From: a virus
Reading direction: 5' to 3' (one strand)
DNA: 24,732 nt
Virus record (IMG/VR): IMGVR_UViG_3300044825_003624
Span: 1-24,732 of that record
Part shown: in pieces, positions 5,051 through 21,600 of the stretch
Layout of the letters: each line of letters starts with the position of its first letter
How positions within the stretch are numbered: the stretch's first letter is position 1
The notes under the pieces: generated by a model
What the model was told of the DNA's origin: nothing
The model's database searches: none
Seen by the model: only the letters and a program-made list of their open reading frames with translations
Position numbers and translations under genes: made by a program

Positions 5051-5211
5051 TGGCTTCCAAAATGCCTCCCCAACTTCTTGAACATTTCAAGAAAAAAGAA
5101 GCAAAACGCGAAGATGGGACAGAAATGTCCGACAAAGAAAAACGTAAAGCAGCTTTAGATAAAGCACGTAAATACCAGGAAAACAAAAGAAAGCAAGTTA
5201 AAAATAAATAG
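5050..5211 (+). CDS. Small Lys-rich conserved cyanophage-type protein (53 aa)
   Basis: Encodes 53 residues starting MASKMPPQLLEHFKKKEAKR and continuing with a DGTEMSDKEKRKAALDKARK helix. It is very basic and predicted helical. Short proteins of the form K-MPPQLL-x-HFK with a Lys-rich tail are, to my recollection, common beside packaging genes in cyanophages; function unknown. The ATG overlaps the preceding TGA by one base. A basic helix could bind DNA or capsid proteins, but nothing in the sequence proves that. Confidence 0.65.
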   Translation: MASKMPPQLLEHFKKKEAKREDGTEMSDKEKRKAALDKARKYQENKRKQVKNK

Positions 5212-5244
5212 GCTACTATTTATTGATCTCATTGCTTAATTGTT

Positions 5245-6771
5245 GTGCCCTCTTACGTACATCTAGCGCATCGCAGAAACGCAAAAGCTGTTGCACGTAA
5301 TCAACAAATTAAAGTACCACGTAACGCAGAAGCTCTGGCAAAAGCCAGAGAAGATTTTGCGTTTTTTTGTGAGTACGTTGCCGATAAACCTCCTGCACAA
5401 CACCATCGAGATTGGCATCGACACTTTGTTACCAACGAAGATAGTTCTTGTTTAATCAAGATCGCTGGTCCCAACATTGATCTTCTTGCTCCACGGGGTT
5501 CAGCAAAAAGTACTGTCCTTGGTTTATTAACTGCCTGGGCTATTGGCATTCACACGCAAGCTAAACTGCCTCTTCAGATTCTTTATCTTTCTTACACGGT
5601 TGATATTGCTCGATCTAAATCAGCAACCATTAAACGTATCATTGAAAGTAAACGATACCAAGAAGTTTTTCCTACGGTTCGTTTGATGAAGAATGTAACC
5701 AGTAATGAATACTGGTCAATTGATCACAGGTTTGCTGGCATTGATGTAACAGGCGATGAACAATTTACGCTTTGCGCTGCTGGCCTCAAAGGTTCGGTGA
5801 CATCTAAACGTTCACATCTTGTAATGATCGATGACGCTATTAAGTCTGCTGCTGATATTTCTAATCCTGACATTCGTAAAACAATGCAGGATAACTGGAA
5901 TGCGGTGATCGCTCCCACCATGTTTGAAGGTGCCCGGGCTATTTGCCTTGGTACTCGTTTTCGACATGATGATATTCACGCTACAACATTTAACGAACAG
6001 AATAATTGGACTCAGATTGTCCTTTCTGCAATTCAATCTAATCCTCAAACAGGCGAAGAGGAATCTTATTGGCCCGATATGTGGTCATTGGATTACTTGC
6101 GTGAAAAGAAAAGGCAAGCGCCTATCGCTTTTTCTTTCCAGTACATGAATCAAATTGTCAGACAAAACGAATTGTCTTTGGCACCTGAGTTAATTGTTAA
6201 GGCAGAAATTTCGACAGAATTTGACACACTTGGAATTGGGGTTGACCTTTCCGCTGGAACAAAAGAAAAGAATGACTATACCGTTATGATTCTTGGCGGT
6301 CGCATTGAAGACCGTATTCACATTATTGATTACCGTCGAATTCGCGTTATGGGAAATCTGGAAAAACTAGATGCCCTAAAAGAGCTTCTTAATGATTGGT
6401 CAATTCTTGGCAAAGATGAGAACGGAAATTATTTTCCGACGTATTCTACGTGTGATATTTGGTCGGAGGCCGTACAGTACCAGGCATCACTGGAAGCTGA
6501 CTTCAAACGGGTCTGTCTTAATAACGAGGGTCTTTACAACTTAATCTGGCATCCAGTTAAAGGATTCCGTGCAGATAAACTTGCCCGTTTTCGTGGCATC
6601 ATGGGCATGTTTGAAGATCGCAAAATTATCTTTAATCGTTTTCGTAATTTCACTGCAATGTTTGAAGAGCTAACCAATTTCGGCGTTAGTAGCCACGATG
6701 ACACGGTTGACGCGTTAGTATGGTTGGTCACGGGCCTCGCTAAAAAAGGCCAGTTACACATTGATTACTAG
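5245..6771 (+). CDS. terL: Terminase large subunit (packaging ATPase-nuclease)
   Basis: Encodes 508 residues from a GTG start giving MPSYVHLAHR. It packages DNA into the prohead through the portal and cuts concatemers. Walker A is APRGSAKST at residues 82-90, in the APRG-x-AKS form used by phage terminases. Walker B is HLVMIDD at residues 191-197, with D196/D197 as the expected metal and catalytic acids. The RNase H-like nuclease domain begins near GVDLSAG (D334), contains an IDYRRIRVMG strand, and ends with HDDTVDALVW (residues 484-493) carrying the late acidic residues. Length fits the family. No Shine-Dalgarno is obvious before the GTG. Confidence 0.93.
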   Translation: MPSYVHLAHRRNAKAVARNQQIKVPRNAEALAKAREDFAFFCEYVADKPPAQHHRDWHRHFVTNEDSSCLIKIAGPNIDLLAPRGSAKSTVLGLLTAWAIGIHTQAKLPLQILYLSYTVDIARSKSATIKRIIESKRYQEVFPTVRLMKNVTSNEYWSIDHRFAGIDVTGDEQFTLCAAGLKGSVTSKRSHLVMIDDAIKSAADISNPDIRKTMQDNWNAVIAPTMFEGARAICLGTRFRHDDIHATTFNEQNNWTQIVLSAIQSNPQTGEEESYWPDMWSLDYLREKKRQAPIAFSFQYMNQIVRQNELSLAPELIVKAEISTEFDTLGIGVDLSAGTKEKNDYTVMILGGRIEDRIHIIDYRRIRVMGNLEKLDALKELLNDWSILGKDENGNYFPTYSTCDIWSEAVQYQASLEADFKRVCLNNEGLYNLIWHPVKGFRADKLARFRGIMGMFEDRKIIFNRFRNFTAMFEELTNFGVSSHDDTVDALVWLVTGLAKKGQLHIDY

Positions 6772-6800: not shown

Positions 6801-7094
6801 GTGGGCCCAGAGTATCTAGCCCTTGTAATAACCGCAGTTGGTTCCGCTGTAACAGGCGGTAGCTGGGTTATGAATAAATTTCTAAACCGCGCTTATGAAA
6901 GGGTTAGAGATGTGCAAGATGACATAAGAAAACAAGACGAAAAAATTAAAACTTTAGAAGACAGCATTGCGCGAATGCCTTTGGAATATGTATTAAAAGT
7001 TGACTTTTTGCGCGAAATCCAAACAATGCATGACAACTTCAAGCAGATAAACATTAAGCTTGATAAGCTTATGGAAAAGCTTTTGGAAAAATGA
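6801..7094 (+). CDS. Small membrane/coiled-coil protein
   Basis: Encodes 97 residues from a GTG. Residues 5-24 (YLALVITAVGSAVTGGSWVM) form one strong transmembrane helix at the N-terminus. Residues about 30-97 are a charged coiled coil (VRDVQDDIRKQDEKIKTLED and later KLDKLMEKLLEK). One N-terminal helix with a coil fits an inner-membrane spanin or holin-accessory protein, or a small virion protein; no lysis cassette is nearby to decide. The last codons overlap the next ATG by 4 nt (atga), showing translational coupling with the AbrB-like gene. Confidence 0.65.
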   Translation: MGPEYLALVITAVGSAVTGGSWVMNKFLNRAYERVRDVQDDIRKQDEKIKTLEDSIARMPLEYVLKVDFLREIQTMHDNFKQINIKLDKLMEKLLEK

Positions 7095-7586: not shown

Positions 7587-7729
7587 TGAAAAAGAAAAAG
7601 CTGGTCAAACAAGCACTTCAGCATCCGGAACTTTATACACCGGCTGAACTTGCTTTCTTTGATCGGTGGCTTATCGAAAAGAAACAAAAGAAAACTGCTA
7701 AGATCAATAAAAAGAAGGTTTATAGTTAA
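7586..7729 (+). CDS. Tiny Lys-rich protein before portal (47 aa)
   Basis: Encodes 47 residues: MKKKKLVKQALQHPELYTPA, then ELAFFDRWLIEKKQKK and a basic tail. It overlaps the upstream stop by one base and the portal ATG by one base (taatg at both ends), so it is locked in a translational chain. Short proteins of the form KK-x-L-(I/V)KQAL-x-HPELY-(S/T)-PAEL are, as I recall, a recurrent companion of portal genes in cyanophages. Function unknown. Confidence 0.65.
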   Translation: MKKKKLVKQALQHPELYTPAELAFFDRWLIEKKQKKTAKINKKKVYS

Positions 7730-10086
7730 TGGCTGTCGACGCAAAGGCCCGCTTAAAAGAAATCATTGATTCCTATCTAGAGAAGGATGGGGGTACTCTG
7801 ATTGACACTGGCGTCGTAGCCTCTCATCTTGCTCAGATGAAACTCTTTGGCATACGTCAAGGAGTTGAATTTTTTCCTGCACAAGATAATTTTGGCAATC
7901 AACGCAAGGACTTTATTGATCGTGTAATTAAATACAATCAAATTGATACGCGCCTGGATTCCATCTGGGATTATTTTTTGTGTGATGGCCAGGGTCTTTT
8001 TTACATTCGCCCTACCAAAAATAACTACCGAATGTATTATTTCCGGCGTCATGAGTACCGGACGTACTACAACCTAGACGGTGAGCTGGATGAGGTGGTG
8101 ATCATCTACAGCTATAAGGTGCGCCGTGGATTTGGTTTTGAACAAGAAATTCAAGCTGGGAATTTAACTGGTCCTGCCACCATGGGCCAAGGTGCAAAGA
8201 GATATATTCGTCTTTCAATCAAGCGAAAACAGATCGAAGAAACTCATTCGGAAGGTGAGATTTCTTTTGAGCAGCCTCAATATTCCGTACAAGGTAAAAC
8301 AAAAGTGTTTCGCAACACACTTGGTTTTATTCCTTGTGTTGAAATTTTTAATAATCCCAAGGGTTTTGCCACAGAAGGTGTTGGTGAATTTGACGCTTTA
8401 GCTAATCATATTTGTACGCATGATGAGATGGTTCGCACCATGCGTAAGAACGTACAGTTTTTCGGTAACCCAACTCTGCTTTCTTCTCGTCCCAAGACCG
8501 ACCTAATGGAGGCTGGTGGAGAGGCCGTGGTTCAGCGTCCATCAATTGCGGCAAACTCCGGCTTTACAGGTCTAAGTACTTTGAGCCAATCTCGTTTTAA
8601 AGCTGATCCAATTAGCCGTGGAGTTGATGGACAGATTCGAGTTCCACGCGTAATTGCAAACCTGGAGCCAAACGACCGTGTTGGTTATATTGTTCCAGAT
8701 GCTATTACCGGTGACCAGAATTCGTTTGCTCGTCAATATCGAGAAGAAATACGGACTGCCCTTGGTGGTGTAGATGAGCTTTCTATTTCTGCAGGCGTAA
8801 CCGCAACTGAATACAAATCGTTGTTTGGCCGTGTGTCTGCAACCTCTAAAAAGAAAGCAAATGCCATTTATACATATGGAATTTGCCGCTGTCTTGAATT
8901 AATTATTTATCAAGAAGAGCGTTTGTTCCGTGAAACGCTTGCTGCTGCAACAGGTCTAGAAAAACCCCTGGAACTACCAGAGGATGCATCAGATGAAGAT
9001 GTTATGGCATATGAAGAGGCCATGGCGCAATTTGATAATCAAGTCAAGCAATTAATGATGGCTTGCTTGAAAACACAACAAATTCCGCCCGGTGTTTTAG
9101 GCTTAATTCCGGATGGTGATGTAACCATGCTTTGGCGTTGGTTAGGTCCTGTCTATGAGGATTCAACCCAAGATATTCTCAACAACTCAATTGTTGTAAG
9201 AAACTTGCAAGAATTAGGTGTTGATAGCATTGAAGCACTGAAATACCTCTTCCCGTCTAAGACGGATGAGGAACGGGCCGAGATGTTATCTGGGTTCCCG
9301 TTCAGGATGGTGGGTGAATTGCAGAATGCTTATTCTCAATTTGCTCGCTTAGTGGGGGGGATGATGCAGACTCCTCACCCGCAATCACCGGATTTACCGA
9401 TGGCTGCGGATCCCAGGTTGGATTTAACTCCATATCTGTATCGAACTCTTGAAGCATTACAAAAGGAGATGAGTTATGCAGGACGCTACCGTCCAATCGA
9501 TCCCACAGACGAGCCCAGCACCAGTGGCGGTGGCTCCCAGCAGTTACGTGGTAACAACTCCACAGGCAGCCTCCCCGGCGCCGGTGGCGTATCAAGTGGG
9601 TACCAGCTACCCCCAAGCGGTACCTCAGGCGAGCCCCAGTTACCAATCCAACCCTATTCAGTACGCCCCCCAATCCCAACCGGCGGGGAATCCATGGGAA
9701 TCGGCGTTCAACAAGGTGGTGAACCTGCTGAGCGCACCAGTCCAATCCCCGTTCCAGGGTCAACCCTCGCTTCCAGCGACTCAATTTACCCCGGCCAATT
9801 ACGGACTGCCCAGCAGCCCAGTTATGCAACCATCGGCTCAGCCGACTTGGTCGCCCAGCCAGGATTACTCGCTCAGCTCTTCCCAAACTTACTTGACGGG
9901 CTCCTCGGCGGTGCAAGCGCATCAAGAGGTGAACGAAGCGATCGCGGATTATTACGGTCTGAGCGGCGAAACCCGTCAGGTCCTGGACGCGTTCGGGATG
10001 GAAGCTCCGGCAATTCTGAACCAGTACGCCCTGAATCTGGAGGGACTCCTGGACAGCGCCGTCGGCTGGGGAAGCCTCGCCGCTGA
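7729..10086 (+). CDS. Portal protein, with C-terminal tail overprinting the scaffold gene
   Basis: Encodes 785 residues. The dodecameric portal is the DNA channel and docking site for terminase. Family assignment rests on size, position after TerL and before scaffold and capsid genes, and portal-like N-terminal alpha/beta sequence (residues about 60-110, IKYNQIDTRLDSIWDYFLCD then a Tyr/Arg-rich strand region), followed by a central helical stem region (FARQYREEIRTALGG). After residue about 590 the sequence becomes Gly/Ser/Pro-rich with a basic end (GQRRRLGKPRR). That tail is read in the same DNA as the scaffold gene in another frame (9476-10086). A run of seven G at 9354-9360 lies inside the gene and could cause slippage. 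The tail may be a true extension or simply unconstrained read-through of an overlapping frame. Confidence 0.85.
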   Translation: MAVDAKARLKEIIDSYLEKDGGTLIDTGVVASHLAQMKLFGIRQGVEFFPAQDNFGNQRKDFIDRVIKYNQIDTRLDSIWDYFLCDGQGLFYIRPTKNNYRMYYFRRHEYRTYYNLDGELDEVVIIYSYKVRRGFGFEQEIQAGNLTGPATMGQGAKRYIRLSIKRKQIEETHSEGEISFEQPQYSVQGKTKVFRNTLGFIPCVEIFNNPKGFATEGVGEFDALANHICTHDEMVRTMRKNVQFFGNPTLLSSRPKTDLMEAGGEAVVQRPSIAANSGFTGLSTLSQSRFKADPISRGVDGQIRVPRVIANLEPNDRVGYIVPDAITGDQNSFARQYREEIRTALGGVDELSISAGVTATEYKSLFGRVSATSKKKANAIYTYGICRCLELIIYQEERLFRETLAAATGLEKPLELPEDASDEDVMAYEEAMAQFDNQVKQLMMACLKTQQIPPGVLGLIPDGDVTMLWRWLGPVYEDSTQDILNNSIVVRNLQELGVDSIEALKYLFPSKTDEERAEMLSGFPFRMVGELQNAYSQFARLVGGMMQTPHPQSPDLPMAADPRLDLTPYLYRTLEALQKEMSYAGRYRPIDPTDEPSTSGGGSQQLRGNNSTGSLPGAGGVSSGYQLPPSGTSGEPQLPIQPYSVRPPIPTGGESMGIGVQQGGEPAERTSPIPVPGSTLASSDSIYPGQLRTAQQPSYATIGSADLVAQPGLLAQLFPNLLDGLLGGASASRGERSDRGLLRSERRNPSGPGRVRDGSSGNSEPVRPESGGTPGQRRRLGKPRR

Positions 10087-10447
10087 TGTAATTCGCGGTT
10101 ACGCTAACTTTGCTGTTAACGAGCATCAAGAGAATCTTGCGTATAACGAGATCCTCACCAACCCTGATGTTCTCAGTGATTACACCCTGAAGTTCTTTGG
10201 TCCTGAAGGTCCGTACCCTGTGTACGAAAACGAAGGCCAACTGGAAACCCGTGGTTATCCCACTGGTTCGATTAGCCCTGGTTACGGTGAGTTCCCGGCT
10301 CCCCCTGCTGCTGCCGCTCCTCAAGCCCCCGAGAATTTCTGGGGCAGCTTCCAAGAGCAAATGGCTCGTGATCCCCAGAATGCATGGCGCGTTCTGAACC
10401 AGGCCCAACCTCAAGTTGTTGCTAACAAACTCTTCGTGATGGAGTGA
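9476..10447 (+). CDS. Probable capsid scaffolding protein
   Basis: Encodes 323 residues in the +1 frame relative to portal. The ATG follows a strong aaaaggag element at 9460-9467. The N-terminal about 80 residues are Pro/Gln/Ser/Ala-rich and disordered, then GNPWESAFNKVVNLLSAPVQ forms a helix. A helical middle follows (VNEAIADYYGLSGETRQVLD, then NLEGLLDSAVGWGSLAADVI), then NPDVLSDYTLKFFGPEGPYP, and a helical C-terminus. Disordered plus helical architecture directly upstream of the capsid region is what scaffolding proteins show; they template prohead assembly and are lost on maturation. The first 611 nt overlap the portal gene. Codon use is G/C-rich, as in the capsid gene. Confidence 0.7.
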   Translation: MQDATVQSIPQTSPAPVAVAPSSYVVTTPQAASPAPVAYQVGTSYPQAVPQASPSYQSNPIQYAPQSQPAGNPWESAFNKVVNLLSAPVQSPFQGQPSLPATQFTPANYGLPSSPVMQPSAQPTWSPSQDYSLSSSQTYLTGSSAVQAHQEVNEAIADYYGLSGETRQVLDAFGMEAPAILNQYALNLEGLLDSAVGWGSLAADVIRGYANFAVNEHQENLAYNEILTNPDVLSDYTLKFFGPEGPYPVYENEGQLETRGYPTGSISPGYGEFPAPPAAAAPQAPENFWGSFQEQMARDPQNAWRVLNQAQPQVVANKLFVME

Positions 10448-10452
10448 GGCAA

Positions 10453-11004
10453 ATGCGACCATTAGGACAAACTCGTCCCTTGCTCGCATACGGAGTTCCC
10501 GCCGCTGCCGGTTTGGCAGTTGGCGGGGCTCTTGCTGCTCAAGGTGAAGATCCTGGCAGTGCAATTCTTGGCGGTGCAGCCGCTGCTTTAGGCGCACGTG
10601 GTGGCTTAGGTGCCGCTCGACTTGCTGGTAAATATGCCCCTGCTATTGCTGAAAACCTCCAAGGTGCTATTGCTCCTGTTGGCCGTGCAGTTCGCGGTGC
10701 AATGAAAGATGTACCCCCTGGTGGCAAGCGTGCCGGAGCACTTGGCAAAGTACGTAACGCACTCGCGGGTGCATATCAAGCCGCTGGAGAAATTAATCCT
10801 GCCCTGGTTCAAAAAATGGCAGTTGCTGGTGCAGTTCCAGCCGCTGCCGCTGCCGCTGGTTTAGGTGGCGTAGCCGCTGGTGCAATTCCTGGGGCACTTG
10901 GTGTTCCTGGTTTCCAGCAATCTATGGGTGTTGATCCAGAGTCTTATGGCTCTAGCAATTCCCCTGGTGCTCGCTATAAAGCACCAACAATGCAGTATGT
11001 GTAA
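10453..11004 (+). CDS. Glycine-zipper hydrophobic protein between scaffold and capsid
   Basis: Encodes 183 residues from ATG 10453, preferred over the GTG at 10444 because ggag at 10441-10444 is well spaced from the ATG. Residues about 10-60 and 120-150 are nearly all Ala, Gly, Val and Leu (AAAGLAVGGALAAQ; AGAVPAAAAAAGLGGVAAGA), flanking a basic middle (MKDVPPGGKRAGALGKVRNA). This looks like a membrane-inserting or ejected virion protein, similar in composition to those at 798-1682 and 15682-16992. A holin is another possibility but the length and basic core fit less well. No family recognised. Confidence 0.65.
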   Translation: MRPLGQTRPLLAYGVPAAAGLAVGGALAAQGEDPGSAILGGAAAALGARGGLGAARLAGKYAPAIAENLQGAIAPVGRAVRGAMKDVPPGGKRAGALGKVRNALAGAYQAAGEINPALVQKMAVAGAVPAAAAAAGLGGVAAGAIPGALGVPGFQQSMGVDPESYGSSNSPGARYKAPTMQYV

Positions 11005-11102: not shown

Positions 11103-11111
11103 GTGTTCATT
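11103..11111 (+). CDS. Major capsid protein, exon 1 (three codons)
   Basis: GTG TTC ATT follows a ggagg ribosome site at 11088-11092 with 10 nt spacing. An in-frame taa at 11094-11096 means GTG 11103 is the only start possible here. Bases 11103-11111 can pair over nine positions with 11738-11746 (the intron guide), ending in the T-G wobble that marks a group I 5' splice site. Joined to exon 2 the protein would start MFIGAELYRPHP and be about 380 residues long. Unspliced RNA would stop after five codons (tag at 11118). Confidence 0.7.
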
Positions 11112-11959
11112 GATAGCTAGTTCAGATCCTGGTAGGTATTGCCCTTCAAGATTTGGTAAATAGCTCCGTGGTTACAGTTAAACTTTTCGGCGATCTTTCT
11201 ATACGACAGACCTGCCTCTTTTAAAGCTTTGATTTGAGCCACGTCATCCGAAGAAAATTTTCTTAAAGTTTTTTTCGGTTTCCCTTTGCTGGCAAAACCA
11301 TTGTTCTTGTAACAACCCGTTTTCCAGGCCCTTGTTAAATTTTCTTGTTTGGTAACGATTTCAAGATTATCAACTTGATTATTTCTCTTGTTGTTATCTT
11401 TGTGATCTACTTGCAGGGAAAAGTTATGTGTTCCATGTGAACGCAGATCTAAACCCAAAAATGCAACTGCCATCAAGACGTGAAGATGAAAACGCTTTCT
11501 CTTTCCGTTAACAAGAACTGAAATACGGTCATAAACACTGGTTGAACGAATGGGAATCTCTTGAAAATATTCTTGATTATCGGGATCAAGTTGTTTTTCA
11601 AAAGCTTTACCTTCTTCCGTTAAGTAAAGATTACCAAATCCTGGAACTAATTTTGGGTCCATGTTGTTTATAAACAGCTTTCCAAAAGATAGCATGCCTC
11701 AGCTGAACGCTCAACGTTGTCACCTCACCGAGCAATCGATGAGTGCAAACCGGATGAATTCAGGGAAGCCCTAACGTATAGTCGAGGGTAATCCTGAGCC
11801 AAGCCAATCAAGCGTGATTGGAAGGTGCAGAGACTACTGGGTGTAACACGATCTTGTTACGTAATACCAGATTCAGCGTCCGGCATCCCACAGGGATGAA
11901 GAGATAGTCCACCCCTCCAAGAAACTGGAGACCAGGAGAACGACTTTCCAAAGATTTTG
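11112..11959 (+). ncRNA. Group I intron (subgroup IA-like) in the major capsid gene
   Basis: The core is readable by eye. Guide 11738-11746 pairs exon 1 (P1). P3 is ccgga 11750-11754 with tccgg 11879-11883. P4 is tcagg 11760-11764 with cctga 11793-11797, inside aatcctgagccaagcc. P5 pairs ccct and aggg. P6a is a perfect ccaatca/tgattgg hairpin (11804-11821). P7 is agact 11831-11835 with agtcc 11906-11910 in the conserved gtgcagagact and aagagatagtcc boxes. P8 is catccc/gggatg (11884-11898). P9 is ctcca/tggag (11915-11930). About 40 nt between P7 and P3 fit the extra P7.1/P7.2 helices of subgroup IA. The 3' splice site is best placed after G 11959, by a weak P10 (ggt with atc) and frame; G 11953 is an alternative. 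The HNH gene occupies the P1 loop. Confidence 0.88.
11117..11695 (-). CDS. HNH homing endonuclease inside the capsid-gene intron, antisense
   Basis: Encodes 192 residues on the strand opposite to its host intron. The N-terminal part (residues 20-80) has the strand and helix pattern seen in intron HNH proteins (VYDRISVLVNGKRKRFHLHV). The HNH motif is VDHKDNNKRNNQVDNLEIVT, with H98 and N110 as the likely catalytic and metal residues. The C-terminus has a helix-turn-helix (LSYRKIAEKFNCNHGAIYQI, residues 163-182) for target recognition. Such enzymes cut intronless alleles to copy the intron. The start may be ATG 11695 or the in-frame ATG at 11662; ribosome-site evidence is weak for both. The gene ends six bases inside the predicted 5' splice site. 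Confidence 0.85.
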   Translation of the reverse strand: MLSFGKLFINNMDPKLVPGFGNLYLTEEGKAFEKQLDPDNQEYFQEIPIRSTSVYDRISVLVNGKRKRFHLHVLMAVAFLGLDLRSHGTHNFSLQVDHKDNNKRNNQVDNLEIVTKQENLTRAWKTGCYKNNGFASKGKPKKTLRKFSSDDVAQIKALKEAGLSYRKIAEKFNCNHGAIYQILKGNTYQDLN

Positions 11960-13093
11960 GGTGCGGAGCTTTACCGCCCCCACCCTGCTTACATTGCAGA
12001 AATGGCGGTAGAGCCTGTGGTCGTCCACGACTTTACTCGTCAACCCGGTCAAACTGTTCAGTTAGATCGCTACAAGTTCTGGGGTACCCCCGGCACGAAG
12101 GACAGCCGCGAGCGTGTGGCTGACCAGACGATCGGTACTGCCAACAGCCGCAACATCACCAAAGAGAAGGTGCTTGTTGTGCTGAAGGAGTACACCGGTC
12201 CTGCCGACCCGGGTGATCCGACTCAACCGAGCACCTTCAAGATTGCTCGTGAAACTCTGATTACCGCCCAGCGTCTTCTGCTGGACACCGGTAACCTGAA
12301 CATGTTCCACCAGTCGATCGGTAGCCTGACGCTGCTTGACGACTACCGCCGTTGGCGTGACCGCGTGTTCATTGATGAACTCGCCAAAGCCGAAGCCAAC
12401 GGTCAAGCCTCCTCTACTCAGGGTGGTTACTACTTCCCTGGTGCTAAGGCTAAAGATTCTACCGGTCGTATCACCTACACTTCGACCGAATACACCGCTG
12501 ATCTGCAGCAATTCTCGGTTCGTACCGACCTGCTGACCGTGGTGAAGGATCTGCGTAAGCGCAACGTGCCGACCTTCTCCGATGGTCTGTATCGCTGCAT
12601 TTGCGATCCTACCTTCATGATGCACCTGCGTCGTGATCCTGACTTCCGTGAGATTGCTCGTTACAGCGGCAATCCTGGTCAAGGCATGTACATGGGCAAC
12701 CCCATGATGCCTAACAACGCCAGCTTCTACATGGGTCCCCAGGCTGGTCAGGGTTACTTCCTGGCTGGTGAGCCTGTCATGCCGACTGGTGTTCAGTTCG
12801 AAGGTGTGAAGTTCTTCGAATCGACCAACTTCCCCACCAAGTCCATCACCACTTCCTTTGCTGGTACCGGCGGTACCTATGCTGCTCAGGAAGTTGCCCA
12901 GGGCTTCTTCTTTGGTCCTCAGGCCATTGGCGTGGGCATCGGTGGTCCGAACGCCCAGGTGCTCATCAACAACAACGACGACTTCAGCCGCTTCATCATT
13001 CTGATTTGGCAGCTGTACGCTGGTTTCGAAATCCTGAACAAGGACTTCGTGACCACCGCTTTCAGCTACGTGTCTGATGACGGTACCGTCTGA
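11960..13093 (+). CDS. Major capsid protein (N4 gp56-like), exon 2
   Basis: Encodes 377 residues beginning GAELYRPHPAYIAEMAVEPV after splicing to exon 1. The upstream in-frame TTG at 11957 would only act as a start in unspliced RNA and lacks a ribosome site. Family cues are the DFTRQPGQTVQLDRYKFWG N-terminal strand, the long helix-containing middle (ERVADQTIGTANSRNITKEK, then LLDDYRRWRDRVFIDELAKA), DGLYRCICDPTFMMHLRRDP, and a C-terminal NDDFSRFIILIWQLYAGFEI. It forms the icosahedral shell. G/C-rich codon use marks it as highly translated. It contains NASFYMGPQAGQ, shared with the small protein at 7275. Confidence 0.88.
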   Translation, partial: GAELYRPHPAYIAEMAVEPVVVHDFTRQPGQTVQLDRYKFWGTPGTKDSRERVADQTIGTANSRNITKEKVLVVLKEYTGPADPGDPTQPSTFKIARETLITAQRLLLDTGNLNMFHQSIGSLTLLDDYRRWRDRVFIDELAKAEANGQASSTQGGYYFPGAKAKDSTGRITYTSTEYTADLQQFSVRTDLLTVVKDLRKRNVPTFSDGLYRCICDPTFMMHLRRDPDFREIARYSGNPGQGMYMGNPMMPNNASFYMGPQAGQGYFLAGEPVMPTGVQFEGVKFFESTNFPTKSITTSFAGTGGTYAAQEVAQGFFFGPQAIGVGIGGPNAQVLINNNDDFSRFIILIWQLYAGFEILNKDFVTTAFSYVSDDGTV

Positions 13094-17923: not shown

Positions 17924-18475
17924 TTATTTTGGTGCAAAAGCTTTTTCAAGCGGCCACCCTTTATTTAATCTTTTTTGCATTGATTGAGGAGATATTCCAA
18001 TTTTTTTAGCCCAATCGGCAATACATAAAGTTTCTCCGTTGAACGTATAAAGTCGTGTTGCGCGTTTGCCGCCACGATTTCTTGTTTGCTCTTTGTGCGT
18101 CGCCCACCTGCAATTGTCTTTACAATAATTTTTATTGTTATCAATTCTTTCAAGTTCCATCTTGGGATCCGGTTTTTCTCCCATGTCAGCGAAGAAGTTT
18201 TCAAATTTTTGCCATGGGGGATCGTAGGTGATGCCTCGGCCACCGTATCGCTCATAAGACGGATGTTTTTTATTGTTACAACGATTTTTCATTGCACACC
18301 ATGAGCCATATTCAGGTGTTTTATTTTTATGCCCGCCATGCTTAAAAGAGCCACATTCTTTAGAGCAAAAAGTGTAACCCTTTTCTTTCAATCTTTTTCT
18401 GTGCCAGGCTGCAGTATTGCCTTCTCTTGTATAGGTTTTCCCGCATTGAGCGCATTGAAAAGTTGTTTGTGCCAT
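17924..18475 (-). CDS. Free-standing HNH endonuclease, antisense
   Basis: Encodes 183 residues on the - strand. The N-terminus has a zinc-finger-like set of cysteines (CAQC at 8-11, C37 and C41). The middle has a conserved aromatic and Gly region (GSWCAMKNRCNNKKHPSYER, then YGGRGITYDPPW). The HNH core is ELERIDNNKNYCKDNCRWAT (residues 108-127). The C-terminus is a helix-turn-helix (IADWAKKIGISPQSMQKRLN). This is a phage HNH family that often occurs as free-standing homing genes. I find no group I core boxes in its flanks, so it seems to be an intergenic insertion, between the genes ending at 17920 and starting at 18525. Confidence 0.85.
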   Translation of the reverse strand: MAQTTFQCAQCGKTYTREGNTAAWHRKRLKEKGYTFCSKECGSFKHGGHKNKTPEYGSWCAMKNRCNNKKHPSYERYGGRGITYDPPWQKFENFFADMGEKPDPKMELERIDNNKNYCKDNCRWATHKEQTRNRGGKRATRLYTFNGETLCIADWAKKIGISPQSMQKRLNKGWPLEKAFAPK

Positions 18476-21237: not shown

Positions 21238-21600
21238 ATGTTCAACAGCGAGCAAGAACCCCTCGCCCTGCTAATTGAACTAACACCTAAACTTGCCAAG
21301 AAACGTTATCGACAATCAATATACGAAGCCTGGGATTACAGATGCGCTTACTGCGAAGCAGAGGCAACATCGCTTGACCATGTGGTACCAAGATTTAGGT
21401 CTGGATCTAGCAACCGCAATAATCTTGTTCCTGCATGCAGAAAATGCAATGCATCTAAAGCAAGCAATAAAGTAAAAGAATGGTTTGAGCAACAAGATTT
21501 TTTTACGCAGGCTAAGATGGATAGAATTAACTCCTGGGTAAAGCAAGAACCTATTGATGTTTTTGTTTATCAAGTCGATTCGTTAAGCTTGGCAAGTTGA
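21238..21600 (+). CDS. HNH endonuclease, McrA-like zinc type
   Basis: Encodes 120 residues. The HNH core is complete: C36-x-x-C39, LDHVVPRF with D47 and H48, then SNRNNLVPACRKCNASKAS with N62, and C67-x-x-C70 for zinc. A short helical N-terminus and a C-terminal tail flank it. It differs from the other two HNH genes here, which lack this paired CxxC pattern around the HNH core. It may be a mobile free-standing nuclease or a packaging-linked nuclease; its place far from the terminase genes and beside an excisionase-like gene favours the mobile option. The next gene starts 1 nt after its stop. Confidence 0.85.
   Translation: MFNSEQEPLALLIELTPKLAKKRYRQSIYEAWDYRCAYCEAEATSLDHVVPRFRSGSSNRNNLVPACRKCNASKASNKVKEWFEQQDFFTQAKMDRINSWVKQEPIDVFVYQVDSLSLAS

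Follow-up and report, generated by a model that had tools for sequence, protein, structure and literature searches.

Portal and candidate scaffold genes overlap by about 600 nucleotides in different reading frames in a large group of cyanobacterial viruses

The portal gene of the window, i.e., the whole 24,732-nucleotide stretch of viral DNA analysed here (IMG/VR record IMGVR_UViG_3300044825_003624), shares its last 611 nt with the following gene in a different frame, and the sequence comparisons described below indicate that the shared segment (9476–10086) is almost certainly genuine dual-coding DNA. The overall reading, which we regard as quite probable, is that a long flexible portal tail is encoded over the N-terminal half of a downstream head-assembly protein, probably the scaffold. 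That this double use of ~600 letters is old and widespread in a large group of cyanobacterial viruses is strongly supported by the relatives.

The portal ORF (7729–10086, plus strand, 785 aa) and the second ORF (9476–10447, plus strand, 323 aa), which is offset by +1 relative to the portal frame, have 9476–10086 in common. The single-frame core of the portal gene, delimited by the ORF and its phrog_20475 match, occupies 7729–9475 (plus strand, ~582 codons) and is followed by a C-terminal tail of ~200 aa at 9475–10086 (plus strand), which is open in all complete relatives and ends at the TGA at 10084–10086 (plus strand). The ribosome-binding site of the downstream gene, AGGAG at 9464–9468 (plus strand), lies within the portal gene; the ATG at 9476 comes 7 nt later, and a TGA at 9470, in frame with the second ORF, is found directly upstream of this ATG. 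Codons 1 to ~203 of the downstream gene overlap the portal, while its single-frame C-terminal part covers 10087–10447 (plus strand), where wobble variation is back to ~0.42. The initial annotation had placed the downstream start at a strong ribosome site within the portal frame, and the near-invariance of the context agrees with this: of 143 close relatives in which the 27-nt stretch TACAAAAGGAGATGAGTTATGCAGGAC could be read, 142 had it unchanged and the remaining one had a single change. No RNA structure signal was obtained at the start of the overlap (z = −0.43), and promoter and terminator scans gave chance-level hits only.

The out-of-frame overlap, first noticed in the window alone, was confirmed from the ORFs and in every complete relative. 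A +1 overlap of 446–638 nt was present in 82/82 non-redundant relatives with both genes complete, at 34–100% portal identity; this set, which takes in the isolate S-EIV1 and a Kovacikia plasmid copy, was drawn from 183 loci (some contigs counted repeatedly), in all of which the relative frame is identical. In the close relatives (IMG/VR contigs, S-EIV1 and one MAG contig), the portal runs 545–641 nt past the scaffold ATG, the exceptions being contigs that end within the overlap and L032 (= L107), where a stop in the frame occurs 9 nt before the contig end. Additional overlaps were checked by hand in L161 (359 nt), L241 (344 nt) and L152 (569 nt, from the ATG at 6820). The shorter overlap in the deep lineage of L161 (4528–5454) and L241 (6796–7743) results from a scaffold start ~100 nt further downstream. 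The downstream protein of L161 contains repeated units of the QLQIADQIAQVYQAQEQ type.

The closest isolate is Synechococcus phage S-EIV1, with 78% identity over portal residues 1–783. The same arrangement, with an overlap of 542 nt, was found at 35% portal identity in a sequence on a plasmid of Kovacikia minuta, and the overlap was present in all six IMG/VR relatives of that sequence as well as in all of the groups added by a capsid-based scan, mostly at ~44–66% portal identity. A relative without the overlap was not encountered in viral-contig scans by portal, capsid and alignment (7/8), in one genome-contig scan, or in tblastn searches of phages and plasmids. The overlap occurs both in phages of picocyanobacteria and in one sequence from a filamentous cyanobacterium, at portal identities as low as ~34%. 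The Kovacikia segment (L147, NZ_CP083583.1 704471–726222) lies on the 1.2-Mb plasmid pA and is a prophage or phage-derived, with relatives of the S-EIV1 genes for terminase, portal, scaffold candidate and capsid.

The identity of the first gene as a portal, as initially proposed, is supported by profile matches and gene order. The window portal matched phrog_20475 (head and packaging) with E = 8e-299, as did 15/15 members, and distant members provided the matches to the portal profiles phrog_64 (7/15, best 5e-10) and phrog_104 (4/15). The order terminase large subunit (5245–6771, upstream of the portal), portal, scaffold candidate and major capsid (from ~11104) is that of a tailed-phage portal. 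Sequence and profile searches of the PDB with the portal yielded no relevant match, and the AF2 model of the portal (pLDDT 35) was too poor for placing the tail.

The description of the portal tail as rich in Gly, Ser, Pro and Arg and low in structure was supported, and the relatives have a tail plan in common: a Gly/Ser/Pro linker, a PxPG element, a hydrophobic motif and usually an Arg/Lys-rich tip. In the window, the PxPG element is the PIPVPGS segment at 9742–9762 (plus strand), in which P674 is invariant and G677 nearly so in all clades. The hydrophobic motif SYATIGSADLVAQPGLLAQLFPNLLDGLLG (9820–9909, plus strand) is more conserved in the portal frame than in the other frame, with portal amino-acid identity of 0.89–0.93 against 0.59–0.69 over most of its length (0.92 against 0.64 at 9820–9855). 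It opens with D-[LIF], as DLVAQPGLLAQLFPN in the window, DLVQQRIYNPDFLSDFYG in marine groups and DILANPGLLSIYL in Kovacikia, and D706 of the tail is invariant down to 34% identity. The C-terminal tip (GGTPGQRRRLGKPRR, 10039–10083, plus strand) has an excess of K/R: the last 15 portal residues contain on average 5.5 K/R in the 82 representatives compared with 2.7 after synonymous shuffling of the other frame, although the tails of L147, L154 and L169 are without a clearly basic end.

Measurement of synonymous change in each frame over 9476–10086, which had been suggested as a check, revealed purifying selection in both frames of the overlap, as judged from sequence variation. The portal frame acquires a stop wherever AA, AG or GA follows a scaffold codon whose last base is T. 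Such a stop-creating synonymous T was used at 0/1,855 sites overall, where ~373 are expected from the 20% T used elsewhere, and at 0/1,473 sites in the 53 close representatives. Since the representatives are related, these counts are not independent, and the agreement across several groups at 34–60% identity is the safer statement. When synonymous codons of the second gene were shuffled in the window sequence, ~4 stops were expected and the portal frame stayed open in only ~0.5% of shuffles; in the reciprocal test with portal synonyms shuffled, ~3 stops were expected in the scaffold frame and none was observed. The third forward frame of the window sequence has 8 stops over the overlap. An antisense ORF (9302–10597) is open across the overlap in the window, but in only 5/37 close and 0/45 distant representatives, and because this long ORF is not conserved, the openness of the portal frame is not a mere matter of base composition. 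Chance openness from GC-rich composition was ruled out by the synonymous shuffles together with the non-conserved antisense ORF.

Third-position diversity of the scaffold gene is 0.256 in the overlap versus 0.420 after it, and that of the portal gene before the overlap is 0.463. The scaffold dNN/dNS is 0.42 (0.31–0.54). For the portal in the overlap, a dNN/dSN of 0.84 (95% interval 0.63–1.11) was obtained, which taken alone does not exclude 1 and is to be judged against the same frame read beyond the portal stop, where it is non-coding and gives 1.73 (1.21–2.62); this control is important, as an upward bias affects the raw portal ratio. At 9802–9909 conservation is higher for the portal residues than for the scaffold residues that share their nucleotides, and at 9782–9883 the second codon positions of the scaffold gene are more variable than its third positions. 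A strict division of function between the frames was not supported overall, as conservation in the two correlates positively (rho 0.31) and the swap is only local, at ~9802–9909. Inside the portal gene, a separate stretch at 9214–9243, ~240 nt upstream of the scaffold start, was nearly free of synonymous change across 53 relatives (codon heterozygosity 0.039, where the 0.1% permutation minimum is 0.16) and is mostly kept at the DNA level in the ~57–60% clade (TTAGGnGTTGATAGCATnGAAGCACTGAA), a putative nucleotide-level element.

Several other explanations of the overlap were weighed. A stop loss or sequencing error private to the window contig is vanishingly improbable: when the stop positions of relatives were compared, none had a portal ending near 9520, and the idea is refuted by the occurrence of the overlap in all complete relatives, which come from independent contigs and an isolate. 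The GenBank annotation of KJ410740, in which the downstream gene (AHV82225, 133 aa) starts after the portal stop, would make the overlapping N-terminal part spurious. This is highly unlikely, as the ATG annotated in S-EIV1 is not conserved, the window having CTC (Leu) there, while the ATG at 9476 and its ribosome-binding site are near-invariant, the N-terminus of the downstream protein is conserved, and, for the portal codons in use, the scaffold frame is kept clear of stops; the annotated start was rejected on the first of these grounds. Another proposal is that the portal frame is kept open only so that ribosomes clear the scaffold start, whether for translational coupling or to avoid polarity, with no role for the residues of the tail themselves. 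It accounts for stop avoidance and for the conserved start context, but it leaves unexplained the tail motif that is better conserved than the other frame, the lineage-wide hydrophobic motif and basic tip, and the portal-type wobble at 9782–9883, and we consider it unlikely.

A more serious contender, though still doubtful, accepts coding in both frames and takes the second gene for another head protein (internal, ejection or minor capsid) rather than a scaffold. No PHROG family or solved scaffold structure was matched, and clade 1 has an extra Ala/Gly-rich gene (10444–11004) between the second gene and the capsid gene, both of which would suit such a protein. Against it, the second gene of the distant clade directly precedes the capsid gene, so that no second scaffold candidate intervenes, and the mostly disordered N-half and helical, basic C-terminus predicted for the product are scaffold-like. 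From its position and its predicted disorder and helicity, the downstream product is fairly likely to be the scaffold.

For the initial scaffold call, position, disorder and a predicted helical C-terminus are in favour, and a family match is missing, as searches of PHROG and Pfam gave none and the PDB gave no relevant one. The candidate sits between the portal and the major capsid gene, from which it is separated in the window by the one small Ala/Gly-rich ORF. Its product is rich in Pro, Gln, Ser and Ala in the N-half, followed by predicted helices and a conserved C-terminus ending in ...NAWRVLNQAQPQVVANKLFVME; distant members have a conserved basic FR.KLL-like ending. In the low-confidence AF2 model (pLDDT 41), the N-half is disordered and helices are predicted at 145–228 and 288–321.

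In lambda C/Nu3 and herpesvirus UL26/UL26.5, a scaffold gene is nested in-frame with a head-assembly gene and shares its C-terminus. The likeness to the present case is that a scaffold, here a candidate, is nested with a head-assembly gene; the differences lie in the out-of-frame arrangement, in the portal as partner and in the lack of sequence relationship. In-frame nesting of the lambda C/Nu3 type was not seen, the offset being +1 in all pairs. The long out-of-frame overlaps of other viruses, such as the phiX174 genes, likewise show dual-frame coding with selection in both frames. In a survey of 12,609 virus genomes, the median overlap in DNA viruses was 15.6 nt per genome, and +1 overlaps had a median of 14 nt (PMC8903798); in another survey, the largest overlap common to families at 95% identity was 185 nt (PMC7017920). 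Compared with these, the present overlap of ~345–640 nt persists to ~34% protein identity. No report of a portal–scaffold overlap was found in the literature searched, outside which most subscription papers lay, nor, in the same literature, was an overlap this old found between head-assembly genes of tailed phages, although long viral overlaps are known.

The homologous genes of S-EIV1 (KJ410740, AHV82224/AHV82225) have a +1 overlap of 554 nt with the same start context and tail plan, but in the record they carry hypothetical annotations and the downstream gene is shortened to 133 aa, so that the overlap is unrecorded. Automatic gene callers generally disfavour such overlaps. The overlap could easily be missed by surveys of annotated genomes because the second gene is annotated in shortened form in the sole isolate. 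A portal tail of ~200 residues and a downstream protein more than twice its annotated length are predicted, and in this group the evolution of two proteins on a single sequence can be followed in a natural example that is both old and well sampled.

Under the dual-coding reading, one message would encode the last ~200 portal residues and, when read in the +1 frame from the strong internal ribosome-binding site, the first ~200 residues of the head-assembly protein that follows, which is probably the scaffold; a scaffold start inside the portal cistron would tie the expression of both to one message. The portal is the ring that admits DNA to the head; its C-terminus points inward, to the compartment that contains scaffold, coat and DNA, and the C-terminal barrel of P22/Sf6 portals sits inside the head. 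The large portal of the P22/Sf6 type has an extra C-terminal part, and the P22 scaffold binds the portal wing and crown (PMC13386823). Unlike the P22 barrel, which is structured, the window portal tail is Gly/Ser/Pro-rich and encoded over another gene. Such a tail may be a flexible linker with a short hydrophobic motif and an Arg/Lys-rich tip, present in ~12 copies pointing into the head. As its most likely role, we tentatively suggest that it could act as a tether, recruiting or aligning scaffold/coat at the portal vertex and/or touching the entering DNA, which is reasonable because of the inward orientation and of the scaffold binding in P22; that the tail touches scaffold, coat or DNA within the head is inferred by this analogy. 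It is rather unlikely, though conceivable, that the lumenal portal tail and the scaffold N-half, which share their coding bases, bind each other and evolve in concert. A single DNA segment would then specify both sides of the contact from which head assembly starts at the portal vertex.

Some minor observations were made on neighbouring genes. In L148, the beginning of the portal gene holds an inserted 230-aa ORF (5167–5859), upstream of which portal residues 1–34 match; the insert is possibly another intron or homing endonuclease. A group I intron (RF00028, 11690–11931, 88.6 bits) splits the major capsid gene of the window (11104–13093) close to its start and carries a homing-endonuclease-like ORF on the minus strand (11117–11695); in L145 the gene is uninterrupted (8591–9754). 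In S-EIV1 (L082, KJ410740 60784–62010), tblastn gave one plus-strand piece from ~60859, where the record has a minus-strand CDS and a short plus-strand CDS; on this alignment the annotation of the major capsid gene seems to be wrong. By sequence alone, two more ORFs of the window, at 17924–18475 (minus strand) and 21238–21600 (plus strand), resemble homing endonucleases of the HNH type.
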